DNA of 64,000 nt from Candidatus Saccharibacteria bacterium CG_4_10_14_0_2_um_filter_52_9 (GTDB lineage Bacteria; Actinomycetota; Acidimicrobiia; Acidimicrobiales; RAAP-2). A program made the position numbers and the translations under genes. This document shows positions 6,164 through 19,414 of the stretch, one piece after another; the first letter of the stretch is position 1; each line of letters opens with the position of its first letter. The DNA lies in contig CAJCJA010000055.1 in NCBI GenBank assembly GCA_903970515.1, positions 1-64,000 of the forward strand. The letters are read 5' to 3'. The notes under the pieces are model-generated. The model was not told where the DNA came from. It did no database searches and saw only the letters and a list, made by a program, of their open reading frames with translations.

Positions 6164-6523
6164 CTAATGAGCGAGCGACATTCCGGCAAGGAACGCGAGT
6201 GCACAAAGCGCGGGTGTCGCGATGACGAGCGTGACCGAATATCCAACGTGGTGTTCTCGCTGAAGGATTGCGGGCACCGCGAAGGCTGACGAAAATGTCG
6301 TGAGTCCTCCACAAAACCCGGTGAGGACGATTGCGTGCAGATGGATGTCGGTGATGCTCGTCAATTGATAGGCCGCCCACCCGGCGATGCCAGTCCCGAC
6401 TACGTTCGCCGCGACGGTTGCCCATGGACGTTGCGTCGGATGCCGTCGACGCACTAGATACTCAGCGACATAGCGGACCACGCATCCCAGCGCACCGGCG
6501 AGTACCACCAGGAACAGGTTCAC
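6164..6523 (-). CDS. crcB: Fluoride channel CrcB/Fluc, second subunit
   Basis: A 119-aa four-helix membrane protein that exports fluoride as half of a dual-topology dimer. I place the start at GTG 6523, overlapping the stop of the upstream crcB as GTGA; the longer reading from 6568 would prepend about 15 residues before the first helix. Diagnostic features are the NVVGTGIAG turn in helix 2 and GFCGGLTTFSSA, the phenylalanine-lined pore motif. The paired, overlapping arrangement suggests an obligate heterodimer. I saw no fluoride riboswitch upstream of the pair. Confidence 0.9.
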   Translation of the reverse strand: MNLFLVVLAGALGCVVRYVAEYLVRRRHPTQRPWATVAANVVGTGIAGWAAYQLTSITDIHLHAIVLTGFCGGLTTFSSAFAVPAILQREHHVGYSVTLVIATPALCALAFLAGMSLAH

Positions 6524-6999
6524 TGCGGCTGTAGCTTCCAACGGAAACGCACTTTTAAACCGAGCCACGCCGCGAGCACGCCACTAAGCACAGCGCCGAG
6601 ACCCACGACCAGTCCGCCCGTGGCTGAGTGGTGCCACACTGCGGCGATATCAACAAAGAGACCAGAGTACGACGTGAAACCGCCAAAGAAACCGGTGATG
6701 ACGAGAAGACGACTGAGGTTGTTGGAATCGAGATTTCGAAGCGGTTCGTGGAGCGCGTACGTCGCGATAAGAACGCCCATGAAATTGATGATCAGCAACA
6801 TCCAAGGAATCTCGCTAAACCATGCGGAGCTGGATGGTTGACCGTAGTATCCGAACGAGCCCGTGTTCGATGAAGCAAAATTCAACCAATTAGATCGAAG
6901 TAAGAGATCGCGAAGAAGAGTGCCGAGTGCGCCACCAGATGCCACTGCGACGACTGCTCGCATCAATTGCTTCGATGTGAGCACGGACTTTGCGGACAT
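6520..6999 (-). CDS. crcB: Fluoride channel CrcB/Fluc, first subunit, with enlarged loop
   Basis: A 159-aa CrcB homologue. Recognisable motifs are GGALGTLLRDLLL in helix 1, NFMGVLIATYAL in helix 2 and GFFGGFTSYSGLF in helix 3. The usual family length is 120-130 residues; the excess is mainly a polar Ser/Gly/Tyr-rich insertion of about 25 residues between helices 1 and 2, plus a short N-terminus. I chose ATG 6999 (MSAKS); ATG 6963 is an alternative, and the open frame continues to 7128 without family-like sequence. It overlaps its partner by four bases. Pore-motif Thr-Thr is Thr-Ser here. Confidence 0.85.
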   Translation of the reverse strand: MSAKSVLTSKQLMRAVVAVASGGALGTLLRDLLLRSNWLNFASSNTGSFGYYGQPSSSAWFSEIPWMLLIINFMGVLIATYALHEPLRNLDSNNLSRLLVITGFFGGFTSYSGLFVDIAAVWHHSATGGLVVGLGAVLSGVLAAWLGLKVRFRWKLQPQ

Positions 7000-7322
7000 G
7001 GATTGAACAAAAGTTATCGCACGAATGTTGAGAGAAAGCACTTTGAGGCGTCCTGAAACACAAACACTGCAATCCGTTGGGAAGATTGAACGGCGCGGCT
7101 TTGAAGTAACCGATTTGCCCTGGCGCAATGTCCTCTCGCAGGTTTCAACATCATGGGGCGTGGCATTCGTAGATCATTCGAATTCGATTTCAACGTTCTC
7201 TTACTTGGTTTCTAGAAATAATCATCGAGTTCGAGTTTCCATATTTTCCAAAGAAATAATGAGAATTGACTGTGAATTCAGTGAGCGTATAGAGTTCACA
7301 GGTTTGTCACAAAGTGCTGCGA

Positions 7323-7387: not shown

Positions 7388-8083
7388 ATGAGGCGCCATT
7401 ACCACTTGGCTGGCCGGTCGGCTGCCCTAACTGCGGCGATTGTCGCGGTGCTTGCTTTAGGTTCGACCGCCGCCGTGACGTTTTCAGGTTTTAGTGCAAC
7501 AATTGTGAACAACGCCAACACGTTTTCCGCGGGAACCATGCAGTTAGAAGAGTCCCAAGGCGCCACCACCTGCTACTCGACCGGTTCTGGTTCGGGCGGC
7601 ACCGTGACGTCGACCAACTCGGCGAACTGCGCCATCAACAAGTTGATCGGTACGCTCGACCAGAAGCCCGCGGGTACCCCACTCACCACAACCATCACCA
7701 TGACGAACGTGGGTACGTTGACCGCGGCCGCGGAATCGCTCGCCTTTGGTACGTGCAGCGCCGCAGCGGCGTCCGACGCCAACGGCTACGTCGGTAGCGA
7801 CACCTCTGGATTTTGTGGCAAGGTCGACTTCAGCGTAGGTTACGGCTCAAAGTGCTTGTATCCCGCCAATGCCTCGGCCGCGTGTCCCGCAACGCCGACG
7901 AGTTCCGGTACCCTCGCCGGTGTCGCGTCGACCACCTTCACGAACTCCTCGAGCCCTGGTCTTCCATTGCTCGCGCCCGCGGGATCCCAGACGTACACCT
8001 TCACGGTCATGCTGGACACCACGGCCACGAATATCGATCAGGGTTTGGCAGCGTCGCAGACTATGACATGGAGTCAGTCATAG
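7388..8083 (+). CDS. Secreted TasA/camelysin-like protein with SipW-type signal
   Basis: A 231-aa exported protein. Residues 1-35 form a signal peptide with a basic N-region (RRHYHLAGR) and a hydrophobic core (about 10-30). It is followed by FSATIVNNANTFSAGTMQL, the stretch characteristic of SipW-dependent TasA/CalY (camelysin) proteins, where the small strand after the cleavage site leads into ANTF-x-AGT. The mature part is rich in Thr/Ser/Ala/Gly with paired cysteines, as in beta-sandwich surface proteins. A terminator-like hairpin follows at 8105-8141. The downstream signal peptidase at 11026 is the probable processing enzyme. Fibre formation like Bacillus TasA is inference; a surface or S-layer-associated role is equally possible. 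Confidence 0.7.
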   Translation: MRRHYHLAGRSAALTAAIVAVLALGSTAAVTFSGFSATIVNNANTFSAGTMQLEESQGATTCYSTGSGSGGTVTSTNSANCAINKLIGTLDQKPAGTPLTTTITMTNVGTLTAAAESLAFGTCSAAAASDANGYVGSDTSGFCGKVDFSVGYGSKCLYPANASAACPATPTSSGTLAGVASTTFTNSSSPGLPLLAPAGSQTYTFTVMLDTTATNIDQGLAASQTMTWSQS

Positions 8084-8104
8084 GAATAAGCGCGTAAGTA
8101 TTCT

Positions 8105-8141
8105 CGCTGCCCCCGCGAACTAAAAGTTTGCGGGGGCAGCG
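8105..8141 (+). terminator. Strong hairpin after the TasA-like gene
   Basis: A perfect 12-bp GC-rich inverted repeat (8105-8116 with 8130-8141), extended by a few inner pairs around a TAAAA loop, lies 21 bases after the stop. There is no U-run after it, as is common for actinobacterial terminators. It may fully or partly separate expression of the small secreted protein from the large LamG gene. Confidence 0.65.
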
Positions 8142-8248
8142 AAGTCTTCGGGTGGGTGAGGGCGGTAGGTGTCGGTAATTGCCAACGATGTTCCAATGAT
8201 TTGCGAGGAACAATCGCGCATGGTCTCTTATCAATTAGAAATTCACTT

Positions 8249-11029
8249 ATGAAGGACAGACCGCGCGTGAATCGACGTTGGCGATTGTTTGGCGGAGCGT
8301 CGGCGGCGGCCGTGATGTATGCGGTGCTGCCGTCAATCGTTGCGTCGGCTGCTATTTTCACGGCCACGATCTTAAATACAACAAACACGTTTTCGAGTGG
8401 AAATCTCCTGATGTCTGGCACCACTCCAACGTCGGTCGTGTGTACTCCCGTAACTGGATCCATTTCGGGGTCGAATTCGACGACGTGTAGTGGAAATCCA
8501 CTCCCTTCGGCCGCGTTGTCGACGACTGCATCGAGTGCGGTGACGACACTCACGTCGGTAGGTTCGCTAAGCGGGGGGAGTGGTCTGCTTTCCTCGACTG
8601 GATGTGGGTTGCAGTATTTCAACGACCTTGGTGGAAATGGTAATTATGGTTTTCCATTTTACGGGGTGACACTCGGTACCACGATGTCCCAACTCTCATC
8701 CACCGCCGCCACGTACGACGGATCCACAGGTTGGACCGAGACCAACCTCAACGAGGGCGCCGCCGCCAATTTCACCATCACGGGATGGTTCAAGACGTCG
8801 GCAAATCAGGGGACTATTGTCTCCTACTCGAACGCGCAAGCCAACACTCTTACTGTCGATAACGACCGCGAGCTTTGGATCGACTCAGCGGGTCACTTGG
8901 TGTGGGCGACGGCAACCAGCGCCAGTGCGGTTACCGAATTGACGAGTCCCTCAACGTACACTGCGGGAACGTGGAATTTTTTTGCCGCGAGTATCAGTTC
9001 GTCCGCCGGGGATCGGCTTTACGTCAACGGCGCCGAAGTGGCGTCCAACGCTGCGACGACAGCGTATAACTACAACGGATACTGGCATTTCGGCTGGGGT
9101 GCGGAACTCGACGGAGCGCCGTCCTGGACCGATAAGCCGACCAACGCCTATTTTAATGGTTCACTCAATGGGCTGGCTATCTTTCCTTCGCCTTTGACCA
9201 CAGCCCAGATCTCGACGCTATACGGAGAGACAACCCAGTCAACCTACAACGCCCAGGTGTCCGCTGATGGCGTGTCGTTCTACTGGCCAATGACTGACAG
9301 TGGCACGACCTCTTACACCGGTACTGTCCCTAATCTGAGCGCGGCGACTCAAACTTTCGCCGACGCCTCGGGCAACGCCAACACGGGAAATCCGGAGGGC
9401 ACCGTTACGACTGGTGCCACCGGTCCCACCACGTTAGGGGGCAATGCAGTCTCGCTGCCTGGTACTTCGGGTTCGGACATTTACACCACGAAGACGTATG
9501 CCAACCCCACGACACTTTCGGCTTCGATTTGGTTCAAAACTACGTCGCAGGGTTCAATAATGGGTGCGAATACGTCCCAGGGCGACGGTACACCCACAAG
9601 TTGGGACCGAGATCTCTGGATTGATCCAACCGGCCATCTGGTATTTGGTGTCAACAACGCAGGCAATCTTGACGAAGTCACTTCTCCGGGTGTCTACAAC
9701 GACGGGAACTGGCACTTTGTTGTTGTTTCCTATGGGTCCTCGGGTGAATACATGTACGTCGATGGTTCTCAAGTTGCTTTTAACTCTGCCGGCACCGCAG
9801 GTCAGAACGCCACGATTTATTGGCACCTTGGCTTCGCCTACGTGCTCGGTTGGGGCGATACGACGACCAATTACAACTTCAATGGCACACTCGCCGCAGC
9901 GGGCTTGTTTTCGACGCAATTAACGTCAGCGCAGGTAACCAATCTCTACAACGCGACGAGTGCAGATAACGAACAAACACGTGCCCTCGCCCTGTCACCA
10001 TTGTCCTACTGGCCACTTACTGACATGATCACGCAAACGTTTATCGATGCGTCTGGGAACAGCAATACCGGTGACCCAGAGGGTACCGTTACGACGGGTT
10101 CTACCGGCCCCACCACGTTGGGCGGGAACGCCGTGACGCTTCCAGGAACGTCGGGCAACGACATCGATACCACAAGGACGTACTCCAACCCAACCACGCT
10201 CTCGGCGTCCATTTGGTTTAAGACCACGTCGCAAGGGGCCATCATGGGTGCTAATACGACGCGCCTCGACGGCACGCCAGGTAGCTGGGACCGGGACTTA
10301 TGGATCGATCCAACCGGGCACCTCGTCTTTGGTATTAACGACGCCGGCACCCTTGACGAAGTGACGTCGCCAGGAATTTACGACGACGGCAACTGGCATT
10401 TCGTCGTCGTGTCCTATGGCTCATTGGGCGAATACATGTATGTCGATGGTTCTCAGGTTGCCTATAACTCGGCCGGCACCGCCGGGCAGAACTACACGAT
10501 GTTCTGGCACCTCGGTTTCGCCTATGTGCTCGGCTGGGGCGATACGACGACCGATTACAACTTCAACGGCAGTTTGGCGCAGGCAGGTCTCTATTCAACG
10601 CAACTCTCGCAAGCACAAGTTACGAGTCTTTACAGCGCACCAAGTTTCGCGGATGAAGAGACGCGCGCGTTGGCGTTGTCGCCTCTGTCGTATTGGCCCC
10701 TCACAGATTCGACGTCGTCTTCGGCGTGTGCACTCATATATGTGACCGTCCAGACTACGGTGGGTTCGACGACATCGTGCGTAGTACCTGCGGGCAGTGG
10801 CGCTTGCGGTGCACCTACCAGCGCGGTGACGGCAAGCAACATTGGCTCACGTCCCATGACGAGTCCAGCGACGGGAGCGCCCGTCACGGTCACGGTGACG
10901 ATGAAGCTCGGCTCGGCCGCGGCAACCGGGGTCGCTGGTTTGCACGTTCTCGTGCCACTGCTGTTTTATGAGAGTCTCTCGACGTTCTCGTCGCAACTTT
11001 CGTACCCCTCTGGAGTGGCAATCTTGTGA
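8249..11029 (+). CDS. Large surface protein with SipW-type signal and three LamG domains
   Basis: A 926-aa exported protein. The start is placed at ATG 8249 (MKDRPRVNRRWRLF); GTG 8267 is possible, and the open frame extends upstream to 8156. The N-terminus has a basic region, a hydrophobic core and FTATILNTTNTFSSGNLLM, matching the SipW-dependent pattern of the gene upstream. Three concanavalin-like LamG domains follow at about residues 150-330, 367-572 and 594-800, each with WFKT, LWIDptGHLVF and YVDGSQVA-type strands. A Cys-containing C-terminal region (about 824-926) resembles the end of a camelysin-like domain, so the LamG block may be inserted into one. LamG domains usually bind carbohydrate or protein ligands. 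The stop overlaps the peptidase start (GTGA). Confidence 0.75.
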   Translation: MKDRPRVNRRWRLFGGASAAAVMYAVLPSIVASAAIFTATILNTTNTFSSGNLLMSGTTPTSVVCTPVTGSISGSNSTTCSGNPLPSAALSTTASSAVTTLTSVGSLSGGSGLLSSTGCGLQYFNDLGGNGNYGFPFYGVTLGTTMSQLSSTAATYDGSTGWTETNLNEGAAANFTITGWFKTSANQGTIVSYSNAQANTLTVDNDRELWIDSAGHLVWATATSASAVTELTSPSTYTAGTWNFFAASISSSAGDRLYVNGAEVASNAATTAYNYNGYWHFGWGAELDGAPSWTDKPTNAYFNGSLNGLAIFPSPLTTAQISTLYGETTQSTYNAQVSADGVSFYWPMTDSGTTSYTGTVPNLSAATQTFADASGNANTGNPEGTVTTGATGPTTLGGNAVSLPGTSGSDIYTTKTYANPTTLSASIWFKTTSQGSIMGANTSQGDGTPTSWDRDLWIDPTGHLVFGVNNAGNLDEVTSPGVYNDGNWHFVVVSYGSSGEYMYVDGSQVAFNSAGTAGQNATIYWHLGFAYVLGWGDTTTNYNFNGTLAAAGLFSTQLTSAQVTNLYNATSADNEQTRALALSPLSYWPLTDMITQTFIDASGNSNTGDPEGTVTTGSTGPTTLGGNAVTLPGTSGNDIDTTRTYSNPTTLSASIWFKTTSQGAIMGANTTRLDGTPGSWDRDLWIDPTGHLVFGINDAGTLDEVTSPGIYDDGNWHFVVVSYGSLGEYMYVDGSQVAYNSAGTAGQNYTMFWHLGFAYVLGWGDTTTDYNFNGSLAQAGLYSTQLSQAQVTSLYSAPSFADEETRALALSPLSYWPLTDSTSSSACALIYVTVQTTVGSTTSCVVPAGSGACGAPTSAVTASNIGSRPMTSPATGAPVTVTVTMKLGSAAATGVAGLHVLVPLLFYESLSTFSSQLSYPSGVAIL
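9347..10714 (+). repeat. Two tandem 684-bp LamG-coding units
   Basis: Units 9347-10030 and 10031-10714 align without any length change (offset exactly 684 bases, 228 codons at every anchor I checked). They encode LamG domains 2 and 3 with nearly the same protein, for example GNWHFVVVSYGS and TRALALSPLSYWPLTD in both. Differences are spread over third positions and a few residues, so the duplication is not brand new but has kept register. Confidence 0.85.
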
Positions 11030-12270
11030 GCGTGACTACTGATGGTGGGGGCACGGTCCAAATCAGCGAAGCGGAACTTCGTCGCCTGCAACGTTTGGAT
11101 CGGCGAGAGTTCACGGATCGGCGTGCCAAACCATTCAGTCCACCAATTCCCTGGGACCTCCGCATTTTTTTCACGATCATTGCGATTGCGGTTCTCGCAC
11201 AGGTCGGATGGCTCTTGAGTGGAGGCTCTCTGTATCGGGTGACGACGGCTTCGATGTGCCCAGAAGTGTGTGTGGGTTCGCTGGTCATTGACCGTCCACT
11301 TCCGGCCAACACGGATGTTCGCAAGGGGGAGACGGTGAGCTTCGTACCTCCCGGTCTCGCGACGGTGTACACCCACCGAGTAGTCAAGGTGTTCGCGAAC
11401 GGAACGTTTCTAACGAAGGGGGACGCGGCCAACATTGTCGATCCTTGGACCGTGTCGCCCTCGGACGTACGAGGCGTTGCCGTCGCAACCTTTTGGGGAA
11501 TGGGTTATTTCAGCGAAGGGCTTCCGTTTCTTGCGGTCGGCGTCGCTTTGGTGTTGCTGTTGCGTCGACAGATCGAAGCACGAGTGCGACGGGACTACGA
11601 TCGATTTTTTGCCATCTTGATCGTCGTGGTACCAATTTGGGTTGTCAAACCTCTCATCCGAGCGACGACGGTGGCGACGAGTGTGGCGAAGAACGGCTAC
11701 GAGCGCGTGGCCCTCGTAAATACCGGTCTCCTGCCCGCACAGTTTCGAACCAAGTCGGGGTTTCGTGACTTTGTCCGCCCCGGCCAACGAATTTCGATGG
11801 TTGGAAAGGTACTGCCGGACGGCCAAGTCGCTATCTCCCAATTTGTCTCATTTCATTGGTACGGCTGGCTGATAGTTGCTCTAGTAATTTTCGTTCCTCT
11901 CGCAACCTTCTTCTTCGAACTCCGGTATTCACGACTCCACTTGCGACGCCGAAGTGACCTTCCTTCGCGCAGGCGACCGGCCGGTGAGCCTGGTCCCGCA
12001 CTTGATCCCTCGTTCATTCCATCCTTCGTGACGATCGACGCCACCGCTCACGCTGTCCGTGAAGTGTTACAACCCGCTCCCATGAATGTAGGGCAAGGCT
12101 TGGCAATTGGGCTCCAGAGGAAGAATGATCGTAAGAAGGCAGCCATGGAACTGCAACACGGCCATGATGCCAAGAAGAAGAAAAAGAAGAAGAAAAAGAA
12201 ATCAAAAATTGGTACTTCGTCTGTCGAGTCGGCGAAGGGCGATGGACGTAGCCCATCGTCCTATGTCTAA
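11026..12270 (+). CDS. SipW-like signal peptidase (S26B family) with polylysine tail
   Basis: A 414-aa membrane protease. After a cytosolic N-terminus of about 45 residues comes a first membrane helix (about 46-65), then the nucleophile Ser76 in TASMCPE with VGSLVIDRP. His117 in YTHRVVK occupies the place of the general base Lys of LepB, and TKGDAANIVDP (Asp133) completes the archaeal/SipW-type signature. Further helices lie near 165-180, 193-210 and 280-297, with an extra soluble segment between the last two. The C-terminus is cytosolic and contains ten consecutive lysines (383-392; bases 12172-12201). Co-location with two proteins bearing SipW-type signals points to dedicated processing. 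The family call is firm; the roles of the extra domain and polylysine are unknown. Confidence 0.88.
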   Translation: MSVTTDGGGTVQISEAELRRLQRLDRREFTDRRAKPFSPPIPWDLRIFFTIIAIAVLAQVGWLLSGGSLYRVTTASMCPEVCVGSLVIDRPLPANTDVRKGETVSFVPPGLATVYTHRVVKVFANGTFLTKGDAANIVDPWTVSPSDVRGVAVATFWGMGYFSEGLPFLAVGVALVLLLRRQIEARVRRDYDRFFAILIVVVPIWVVKPLIRATTVATSVAKNGYERVALVNTGLLPAQFRTKSGFRDFVRPGQRISMVGKVLPDGQVAISQFVSFHWYGWLIVALVIFVPLATFFFELRYSRLHLRRRSDLPSRRRPAGEPGPALDPSFIPSFVTIDATAHAVREVLQPAPMNVGQGLAIGLQRKNDRKKAAMELQHGHDAKKKKKKKKKKSKIGTSSVESAKGDGRSPSSYV

Positions 12271-12347: not shown

Positions 12348-12497
12348 CTGGCGGCCCTTGATTGGTGACGGGCAGTGTTGTCAGGTGGACAAATTTGGAG
12401 TCCTTGATCGGTTGCAGGGGGTGGTGTACTCCTTGAGTGTCAACTTACTCACTTTACATAACGTACATTATCGGCGTTAGTTCCGATTAACTGTGAC

Positions 12498-12503
12498 TAT
12501 ACT
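12498..12503 (+). promoter_or_regulatory. TANNNT box, possible leaderless start
   Basis: TATACT ends seven bases before ATG 12511, and no ribosome site is present. The spacing supports ATG 12511 over the upstream GTG 12493, which would lie within or before the promoter box. Confidence 0.5.
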
Positions 12504-12510
12504 TAACGGC

Positions 12511-12909
12511 ATGCGTCGGATTCTTTGTGCTGCGGTTTTTCTGGCCGTTAGTGTCGGTTTCCTCGCCATTCCGGCGGGGGCTGATTTGAGCACGCCTCCA
12601 GGGACTACGCTCTCGTTCGATTACAGCGACAACGTCAATCCGGCCTCAGCAAGCAATGGCGAGTTCAACATCATCGTAGACGTCATTCCGGCGCATACGT
12701 CGGGCGTGGTGCGGATTGTCGCCGTGGCTCCGATCGCTGCCGATGAACCGAATCTCGTGTGCGCCTATCAGACGATCTCCTACAGCCAGGTCGAGTGCGC
12801 GTTCAACTTCACGTCGAGCGGTGTATGGATTATTCACGCCTTCTACGCGACTTCGAGCAAAGATGTCGTGAGCCAGAGTGCGGTTGCCAGTTTGCGGGTC
12901 GGCCCTTAG
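12511..12909 (+). CDS. Small secreted protein with Ig-like beta fold, function unknown
   Basis: A 132-aa protein with a classical signal peptide: MRRIL, a hydrophobic core, then IPAGADLS with a probable cleavage after AGA. The mature ~105 residues alternate hydrophobic and polar residues, contain two cysteines about 17 apart, and read like a single immunoglobulin-like or Y_Y_Y-type beta sandwich. There is no ANTF motif, so it need not be a SipW substrate. It stands alone after the export module and has its own -10 box. I do not recognise a specific family. Confidence 0.6.
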   Translation: MRRILCAAVFLAVSVGFLAIPAGADLSTPPGTTLSFDYSDNVNPASASNGEFNIIVDVIPAHTSGVVRIVAVAPIAADEPNLVCAYQTISYSQVECAFNFTSSGVWIIHAFYATSSKDVVSQSAVASLRVGP

Positions 12910-17806: not shown

Positions 17807-19414
17807 CTAGTGATTTTGGCGATTTCTCTCCGCGGTGCGCTCCGCTTCGAGTCGCTCGAGATCGATGTCGGAATAATCGACGTAACGCATCGCTTCAGCA
17901 ATTGCTCGGTGACCGGCTTGTTCGCGGATGAGGCGAGCCATTTCGTGCGCGACGCGCCGGTAACTTGGGTGCCCTTGGGGGCCGGAACGCAGCTCAATCA
18001 GGTGCATCGCTTCGCGCGCGTTCATCTGCATCTCGTAGCGAATCCGAAACGCAAGGGCGACGCAATACTGACTCTGGTTCGAGAACTCGGGGCGCATGTC
18101 GTAAAAGAGCGCGGCCGAGCGGTGCAAGGATTCCGTGAAGGGCTGCTCGAGACCCGCTTCGACCACCACCTCAGGCACGTCGAAGCCCAAGTCGACCGTG
18201 AGGGGTTGCCACTCAATACTCAAGAGACGGTGTCGTTGCAGATCTCGAAATGCCCCGTAGTCCGTCACCAATTCGAAGCGGTAGTCCGTCGCTTCGAACG
18301 CTCGACCAGGACGATGACGTCGATTCTGGCGATGACCCACGTACGCCTTCATCAGCCGCTGTCGTTCCTCGACCGACATCTTCGCCACCACCCGCACCGC
18401 GGCGTCGTGCGAGACCGTTGAACTCGCCGCGACGATTGCTTCGAGGACCCGCGATTCTCCTTCGGGGTCGAAAGTCACAAGTCGAACGCTCTCCCCCGAC
18501 GCATCGTGGCCCTCATCGGCGGTCTTCTCACGCACGAGGGCGGCGGTCGCAGCGTTCGTCGTCGCAAAATAGCTCGTCCAGGCGAGACCGCGCTCGGGTA
18601 CGTCGAGTCGTTTCAAGAACGAGGGAATCACCTTTCGGAGCTCCTCGAGCATGAGCGCGGCGTAGTCGCGGACCTCGGAAAGCGGATGAGCACGCATGCG
18701 AAGGATCAGTGCCTCGTATGCCTGGCCTGAGGCATAAATGCCGAGATTCGACAGCGAGCTCGCCGGCAGCAGTCCTCGCGCCGCGTCAAGGGCCTTCGCG
18801 CGAATGGCTTGTCGGTACACGAAATCGGTGTCTTCAGGAGTCTTCGGGTATTTTCTCGCGATGTGTTCGCTGAGACGCGGAAGCAATTCCGCGTACGTGT
18901 CGAACATGCGGTCCATCTCACCCACGTAGCGCGCACCGAACCGCGATTCGAGGACGTCGTGGTCTCGGTAGAAACGGTAGTGCCCGTTTGCGAGACGTTT
19001 GTCGTAGCCAAGGTAGCGAGTCGACTGTTCGAGGTAGCTCATCAATCGTCCACGTTCGAGCACTTTGGTCAAGATGTTGCTCGCCTGCTCGCAGGCGAGA
19101 TGCACGCCGCCCAGTTGAGCGACCGAGTCGTCGCCGTATTCGTAGAAGATCTTTTGGTACAACTCGTCAGCGCGCTCCAGACCAACAGTCGCGTCGATGG
19201 TGAGGTCGCCCGTGAGGTCGAGGTCGCCCACGAACTCGTCAAGGAAGAGACGTCGAAGGCTCTTGGAGGATCGCGAGTATCGCGCGAACAATGCGCCCTT
19301 CACCACCTCGGGAAGATTCACGAGCGCGAAGACCGGCCCCTCAAGATTGGTGAAATAACGTCGAAGAATCGACGTTTCGGCGTCAGTGAATTCTTCGGTG
19401 GCGTAGGGATGCAT
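17807..19414 (-). CDS. ThyX-like protein, two fused thymidylate-synthase-type halves
   Basis: A 535-aa protein, about twice the length of a normal flavin-dependent thymidylate synthase. The first half contains SYLEQSTRYLGYDK, the equivalent of the ThyX NEQSTRY motif, but the preceding RHR is altered (ERGR). The second half keeps RHRLLS (about residue 400) and HLIELRSGPQGHPSYRRVA, matching the ThyX C-terminal LxLR...R motif. Each half thus seems to retain a different subset of active-site residues, which might combine into one site, or the protein may have another function. ThyX normally methylates dUMP with FAD and methylene-tetrahydrofolate. It follows helY by 24 bases. An 8-bp inverted repeat (17797-17804 and 17815-17822) spans the stop codon. 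Confidence 0.8.
   Translation of the reverse strand: MHPYATEEFTDAETSILRRYFTNLEGPVFALVNLPEVVKGALFARYSRSSKSLRRLFLDEFVGDLDLTGDLTIDATVGLERADELYQKIFYEYGDDSVAQLGGVHLACEQASNILTKVLERGRLMSYLEQSTRYLGYDKRLANGHYRFYRDHDVLESRFGARYVGEMDRMFDTYAELLPRLSEHIARKYPKTPEDTDFVYRQAIRAKALDAARGLLPASSLSNLGIYASGQAYEALILRMRAHPLSEVRDYAALMLEELRKVIPSFLKRLDVPERGLAWTSYFATTNAATAALVREKTADEGHDASGESVRLVTFDPEGESRVLEAIVAASSTVSHDAAVRVVAKMSVEERQRLMKAYVGHRQNRRHRPGRAFEATDYRFELVTDYGAFRDLQRHRLLSIEWQPLTVDLGFDVPEVVVEAGLEQPFTESLHRSAALFYDMRPEFSNQSQYCVALAFRIRYEMQMNAREAMHLIELRSGPQGHPSYRRVAHEMARLIREQAGHRAIAEAMRYVDYSDIDLERLEAERTAERNRQNH

Follow-up and report, generated by a model that had tools for sequence, protein, structure and literature searches.

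A LamG-bearing gene cassette with probable TasA-type thread subunits and its own SipW-type peptidase in an actinobacterial order

The window (the whole stretch of DNA that was analysed, 64,000 nucleotides) contains three plus-strand genes that fill positions 7388–12270 and very probably constitute a dedicated export module. They encode a small exported protein related to TasA and camelysin (P0001), a large protein (P0002) that alignment identifies as its paralogue, in which LamG units sit inside the same domain, between cysteines 3 and 4, and a signal peptidase of the SipW type (P0003). It is reasonably likely that the three genes are a self-contained cassette for extracellular threads of the TasA type, and by analogy with known systems the cassette most likely builds adhesive threads like those of Bacillus biofilms. 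TasA-type fibres have been described in Bacillus and in archaea (passages of PMC9674648, PMC10151520 and PMC9715654). Here a compact TasA-type cassette, inserted between flanking genes, is found in an actinobacterial order, and it suggests a route to a fibre adhesin in which lectin-type units are nested in one loop of a subunit copy. If this reading is true, a single fold would serve both to enter the thread and to display LamG units, one to three of them.

Organization and distribution of the cassette

The open reading frames lie where the initial annotation had placed them (Table 1). The start of P0002 is most likely the ATG at 8249 and not the GTG at 8156, which would give a protein of 957 aa; the ATG is preferred because the relative in locus L030 starts with ATG, as MKKAPFRRRR, at the equivalent position. 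The sequence AAGGAG precedes the P0001 gene, and nothing like it is seen upstream of the ATG at 8249. The GTG start of P0003 overlaps the TGA stop of the P0002 gene (11026–11029). The G+C content is 56.8% in the cassette and 61.2% in its flanks.

Table 1. Coordinates of the cassette features in the window.
Feature	Position	Strand	Basis
P0001, small TasA/camelysin-related subunit, 231 aa, six cysteines, SipW-type signal region	7388–8083	+	sequence, profiles
Hairpin in the RNA, 18-bp stem and 3-nt loop, directly 3' of the small gene	8104–8142	+	folding compared with shuffles
P0002, large subunit, 926 aa from the ATG at 8249, TasA-like shell and three nested LamG units	8249–11029	+	
P0002 shell, N-terminal half (signal region, Cys65, Cys80, Cys119), border approximate	8249–8629	+	
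P0002 nested insert, 694 aa without cysteine, three Laminin_G_3 stretches, borders approximate	8630–10711	+	
P0002 shell, C-terminal half (Cys827, Cys844, Cys853) and extension, border approximate	10712–11029	+	
P0003, SipW/ER-type signal peptidase, Ser76/His117, 414 aa, GTG start	11026–12270	+	

A search for the same gene set in related genomes, which the initial annotation had proposed as a check, found 15 loci in which all three genes stand together; these loci are spread over six families of the order (f1, f48, f31, f61, f45 and f16). A local profile scan of 34 loci (the window, L030–L049 and L076–L088) accounts for 13 of them, namely the window, L030, L032, L033, L034, L035, L037, L076, L077, L079, L081, L083 and L084. 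Loci L133 and L036 raise the number to 15; the LamG gene of L036, which starts in the last 484 bases of its contig, was judged by eye from its likeness to that of L037, and L132, whose match figures are identical to those of L030, was taken to be from that genome and left uncounted. Thirteen of the 15 loci have the order small–LamG–peptidase, and L036 and L037, both of the window's own genus, have small–peptidase–LamG. Since the homologues come mostly from fragmented genomes, contig-cut and frame-broken copies occur among them: in L078, L080 and L082 the small and LamG genes are followed by the contig end. The other scanned loci had entered the set through peptidase or distant small-family matches and have no adjoining LamG match.

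The small family is present in eight of the 99 genomes of the genus, and all eight are among the 15 loci. Profile A3 was matched in 17 of the 397 genomes of the order, some of them just distantly, and profile A4 in four of the 396 genomes of the phylum. Of the named records, the nearest is a bog MAG of the Acidimicrobiaceae. As a side observation, like signal peptidases adjoin at least one protein with a SipW-like N-terminus, with no LamG match, in L040, L041, L045 and L088; small-family matches number four in the last of these, and three of the four, at 377–393 aa, exceed the usual 230–280.

The small subunit and its kinship to camelysin and TasA

The sequence of P0001 includes ...AVTFSGFSATIVNNANTFSAGTMQLEE. 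The N-terminal motif of SipW type that had been noted as common to the two adjacent exported proteins is indeed present in both P0001 and P0002, and it was read in their homologues as well. Among 14 aligned small-family sequences its residues G34, F35 and G49 hardly vary; this near-invariance, together with the existence of small-family relatives in other families of the order, puts the motif and the module beyond chance.

The curated camelysin and SipW-signal models do not capture these proteins. P0001 has no match in any Pfam or NCBIfam model at E up to 1; neither P0001 nor P0002 matches the camelysin model PF12389 or TIGR04088, the curated model of the SipW-type N-terminus, at the same limit, and the whole genome has no PF12389 match at E 0.001. 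TIGR04088 is matched above its cut-off by a protein of L042. A Pfam scan of ten relatives gave PF12389 matches for seven: above the gathering score in L042, L043 and L045, just under it (22.5 bits) in L085 (22.1) and L088 (21.5), and at E 0.011 and 0.0046 in L086 and L087. The three proteins of that scan that come from three-gene loci (L083, L081 and L036) had no PF12389 match.

The kinship was seen in profile–profile comparison by hhalign, the percentages of which are single-pair values and not those of a database search. The small family aligned with 16 Pfam-recognised camelysin proteins of the order at 98.4% over the full length and at 95.1% over 38 columns when the mature part only was compared. 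A set of five intermediate proteins from L085–L088 links the two groups: the 15 small proteins matched these intermediates at 99.8% (99.3% without the signal region), the intermediates matched the 16 camelysin proteins at 99.1% (97.6% without it), and the small family pooled with the intermediates matched the camelysin reference at 97.0% over 127 mature columns. Decoys (LamG and the reversed reference) gave 0.1–0.8%. The rows of both helper sets were partly hand-chosen, the intermediates being five of eight candidates and the camelysin reference having been reduced from 30 PF12389 loci (27 tried, 22 rows) to 16 proteins after reading of the N-termini; selection on the N-terminus may bias that region towards a match, and the mature-only comparisons are a partial guard against this.

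The mixed profile A5, with ten rows (two cassette proteins, P0001 and that of L035, four intermediates and four canonical proteins), had as its PDB matches up to E 10 two TasA structures, 5of1 (E 0.026) and 8aur (E 0.031), and AbpX 9sj2 (E 0.1). This match to TasA may rest on the non-cassette rows, since A5 is composed mostly of them and TasA is absent from the PDB matches of A4, the profile built from cassette proteins only. On the profile comparisons taken together, the mature domain of P0001 is homologous to camelysin/TasA, as a relative and not as a member of the family as Pfam draws PF12389. AlphaFold produced two models, each from a two-row alignment, with mean pLDDT of 39.2 and 29.4, neither of which is usable; a Foldseek search with the first of them gave 242 matches up to E 10; no match had an E value of 0.001 or lower, and there was no TasA among the best 50 of the 242.

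The residues around the predicted cleavage point can also be compared with those of TasA. When F35 of P0001 is set on the P2' Phe of TasA, T-F-S/G-F stands beside T-W-A/A-F, the cleavage point of P0001 being placed by alignment to a site that is itself predicted in TasA. Gly-Phe occupies the P1'–P2' position in all 13 small sequences having that segment. The aromatic P2 residue is present in P0001 and in the L030 protein and is lacking, for example, in that of L032 and in P0002. In TasA, Trp at P2 and Phe at P2' have been linked to poor cleavage by LepB (a passage of PMC10269814).

The large subunit as a paralogue with nested LamG units

The sequence of P0002 includes ...ASAAIFTATILNTTNTFSSGNLLMS. 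It had been described as a separate second surface protein with LamG domains; the LamG assignment holds, and the separateness does not, since P0002 is, by alignment, a paralogue of P0001 and a TasA-like subunit with nested LamG units. When the LamG region was removed from three large proteins, the remainder aligned with five small ones over 185 columns at 98.7%; five of the six cysteines are column-matched in every row, and the first is matched in the L035 protein and four columns off in P0002. Among 14 large open reading frames examined, eight could be divided into shell and insert, and the shell of these eight gave 99.7% against the small family, and 98.8% once the signal region had been taken off. 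The interrupted frame of L030 and the frames of L078, L080 and L082, which run off their contigs, were left out of the shell set, as were L037, which lacks a C-terminal half, and L079, whose N-terminal half appears to be on the other strand; the large frames of L032 and L033 are broken and lie outside the 14. The direct match of the large shell to the camelysin reference was just 49%, over 30 columns.

The insert of all eight large proteins sits between shell cysteines 3 and 4 and is itself free of cysteine, and in all eight its length follows the number of Laminin_G_3 stretches, by which the units were counted: 232–236 aa with one stretch in L083 and L084, 468–510 aa with two in L034, L035, L076, L077 and L081, and 694 aa with three in P0002. 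P0002 scores 129.3 bits against PF13385 (gathering score 27.6) in these three stretches, and all eight other large proteins scanned pass the same gathering score. Units 2 and 3 of P0002 are 83% identical as protein and correspond to a DNA repeat pair (9347–10023 and 10031–10707) of 74% identity; unit 1 shares 41.5% and 45.5% identity with these two. In L037 the LamG protein has the N-terminal motif and two LamG stretches and lacks the C-terminal half, so the units there are appended at the end and not nested. In L079 a small-family match at 6770–7120 (+) runs against the direction of the other cassette genes; it may be the N-terminal half of the large gene after an inversion, either a real one or one made by the assembly.

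P0002 has a C-terminal extension ending in STFSSQLSYPSGVAIL, and the small subunit has no such extension. A strand similar to F-(S/T)-A-x-(L/I/V) is found 15 residues before the end in ten of ten large proteins, its F not being kept in L076 (LWWAQI) and L081 (TWTASV). At a width of six residues this strand ranks 1 to 15 among the 350–811 windows of each protein in likeness to the N-terminal donor motif; the chance per protein is between 0.03 and 0.41, for sequences that are related to one another, and the result is mostly weaker at widths 7 and 9. The resemblance of the C-terminal strand to the donor motif is offered only as a suggestion.

The signal peptidases

The initial annotation distinguished a neighbouring Ser/His peptidase of the SipW type from a Ser/Lys LepB at 22.7 kb, and reading the residues of both enzymes bears this out. 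P0003 has Ser76 (TASMCP), His117 (YTHRV) and KGD...DPW, and the enzyme at 22.7 kb, which matches Peptidase_S26, has SASMEPTL and LVKRVV. P0003 scores 46.2 bits against TIGR02228 and 27.4 bits against the SipW model NF046067, below the respective cut-offs of 51.85 and 190. A TIGR02228 search of the genome, which is about 96% complete, found P0003 and the 22.7 kb enzyme and no third place.

The catalytic His is kept in 14 of the 14 aligned peptidases with that segment, and the Ser in 12 of the 13 scanned, the 13th, that of L030, being interrupted there; the L133 peptidase is outside the alignment. L076, L077 and L084 have another residue in place of the Asp of KGD, and the DPW-type motif further on retains its Asp. 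In every peptidase scanned the catalytic part is followed by one or more hydrophobic segments; P0003 carries additional hydrophobic segments, a loop domain and a tail rich in lysine. This tail includes a run of ten lysines near the C-terminus (12172–12201, +); it is similar in L030 and absent from the other aligned peptidases. The loop (VNTGLLPAQF) was considered as a copy of the substrate domain and rejected, with hhalign values of 0.2–0.6% against 0.2% for the LamG decoy.

The proposal of a dedicated SipW-type export module with TasA-related proteins thus gains from profile homology, from the gene order in other genomes and from the Ser/His residues.

A hairpin after the small gene

The 80 nt following the small gene (8084–8163) fold with a z of −6.75, and none of 200 shuffles was as good. 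The same stretch beats all 200 shuffles in each of the six small–LamG–peptidase loci of the genus, the z values in the other five being −4.96 (L030), −10.38 (L032), −3.68 (L033), −7.02 (L034) and −4.14 (L133). Outside the genus the hairpin is strong in L083 (−4.21) and L077 (−3.77), weak in L076 (−2.55) and L082 (−2.54), and not significant in L035, L078, L079, L080, L081 and L084, i.e., in six of the 16 cassettes compared (the set without L036 and L037); z is below −3.5 in eight of the 16. In several other families the 80 nt extend into the large gene. Folding of an equally long stretch behind the window's peptidase gene gave a z of −0.23. A full intrinsic terminator is not claimed, because the stems differ in sequence among the loci and no U-tract follows the hairpin in the window. 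We presume the hairpin to be a leaky stop or a 3' protection that gives more small than large subunit, and P0001 is likewise presumed to be the major, abundant one.

A proposed assembly and the alternatives

In the proposed scheme Sec would export P0001 and P0002, and P0003 would cleave both and free their N-termini. The freed N-terminal strand (around F35, I39 and F46 of P0001) would then complete the beta-sandwich of the neighbouring subunit in the manner of TasA fibres, where the N-terminal strand enters the next subunit with contacts including F29, I32 and F39 (passages of PMC9674648). P0001 would be the abundant subunit of the thread and P0002 a scarce subunit of the same thread, displaying its LamG units, of a lectin-type fold, outward. 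By this analogy donor-strand threads are a fairly likely product. A role in adhesion and a strict need for the neighbouring peptidase are inferred.

The place of P0002 in the thread can be proposed only tentatively: it may be a starter or end piece instead of an interspersed subunit, perhaps a TapA-like starter. TapA is scarcer, has its own fold complete and donates the first strand (passages of PMC10151520). The C-terminal extension of the large protein might, as a suggestion, close its own groove and so make it a starter. The complete version of this idea, a donor-strand thread with a minor subunit that bears one to three LamG units in a sandwich loop and is an obligatory starter with its own groove filled by its C-terminal strand, we regard as unlikely to hold in every part. 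NCBIfam includes a TapA/YqxM model, and P0002 matches no TapA model there at E up to 1.

Exported surface or matrix proteins that do not polymerise, i.e., soluble or cell-bound adhesins processed by a dedicated peptidase, are a rather unlikely alternative to threads. Kinship to camelysin alone does not show polymerisation, AlphaFold gave no usable model, and arrays of LamG units are known from non-fibrous adhesins. Against this, a LamG-free paralogue adjoins the LamG-bearing one in 15 three-gene loci, and eight large proteins retain the whole shell including the N-terminal segment; the joining of both proteins in one assembly is, on these grounds, the easier account.

It is considerably less probable that the LamG protein captures or processes polysaccharide and that the small protein is its partner or chaperone and not a pilin. 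Laminin_G_3 is described as belonging to the concanavalin A-like lectin/glucanase superfamily, and the bog origin of the nearest named record would suit such a function, but the Pfam matches of P0002 are to Laminin_G models solely, with no glycosidase model among them. Binding modules are often repeated in tandem, and the LamG unit is so repeated in six of the eight large proteins counted.

That the gene order is coincidental and LepB processes P0001 and P0002 is very improbable, for although SignalP predicted LepB cleavage of TasA too (a passage of PMC10269814), so that sequence rules do not decide the choice of peptidase, the peptidase gene adjoins two substrates in 15 loci of six families and Phe stands at the TasA P2' position in 13 of 13 small sequences.

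Comparison with known systems

The thread-building cassette favoured here resembles tapA-sipW-tasA of B. subtilis in joining two exported subunits to a Ser/His signal peptidase, and the overlap of the tapA stop codon with the sipW start (a passage of PMC10151520) is like that of P0002 and P0003. It differs from that operon in its order (small, large, peptidase), in that its second protein is a LamG-bearing paralogue of the first, the LamG units being nested in it, in the six cysteines of the small family and the shell, and in the greater length of P0003 with its loop domain and further hydrophobic segments. The sipW region of Bacillus cereus (CalY, TasA, CapP) likewise has two camelysin paralogues and one SipW (PMC10151520), and its TasA and CalY co-assemble (PMC13082335), but LamG, present in our cassette, is not mentioned for B. 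cereus in the cited passages of these two papers. The archaeal bundling pili (AbpA, AbpX) are TasA-related donor-strand fibres according to passages of PMC9674648 and PMC9715654; AbpX was the third, weak match of profile A5, and those systems are archaeal whereas the cassette is actinobacterial.

The only NCBIfam match of P0002 at E up to 1 was to NF052521 of the fimbrial TafC family, with 44.6 bits against a cut-off of 410, and its best stretch (residues 515–602 of the GTG-start protein) lies inside the LamG insert. Among CC-licensed PMC papers none on fimbrial TafC was found, and none by title on a TasA–LamG protein or on the cassette.

Insertion site and neighbouring genes

The cassette is an insertion in this genome. 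In the window and in L030 it lies between a pair of CrcB genes and the gene at 12493–12909. Nineteen loci with a dehydrogenase downstream (L136–L154) were collected, and 18 were compared as cassette-free relatives, L141 belonging to a cassette genome; the eight small-family genomes of the genus include none of these 18. In 11 of the 18 (L139, L142, L143, L144, L146, L147 and L149–L153) no more than 400 bases separate a CrcB match from the 12493-type gene, and there is no CrcB match in the stretch examined in the other seven. In L032–L034 the flanking genes of the window are unmatched, so the cassette sits elsewhere there.

The gene at 12493–12909 (+) encodes an exported protein of 138 aa with no Pfam or NCBIfam match. 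It was considered as a member of the cassette and rejected, because relatives that lack the cassette still have it in the flank, next to the dehydrogenase. The two overlapping CrcB genes (PF02537) that border the insertion site at 6164–7128 (−) presumably encode a two-subunit fluoride channel. Further downstream, at 17807–19414 (−), a protein of 535 aa has two stretches of PF02511 (thymidylate synthase complementing protein, a model of 191 positions) and looks like a tandem or fused ThyX.
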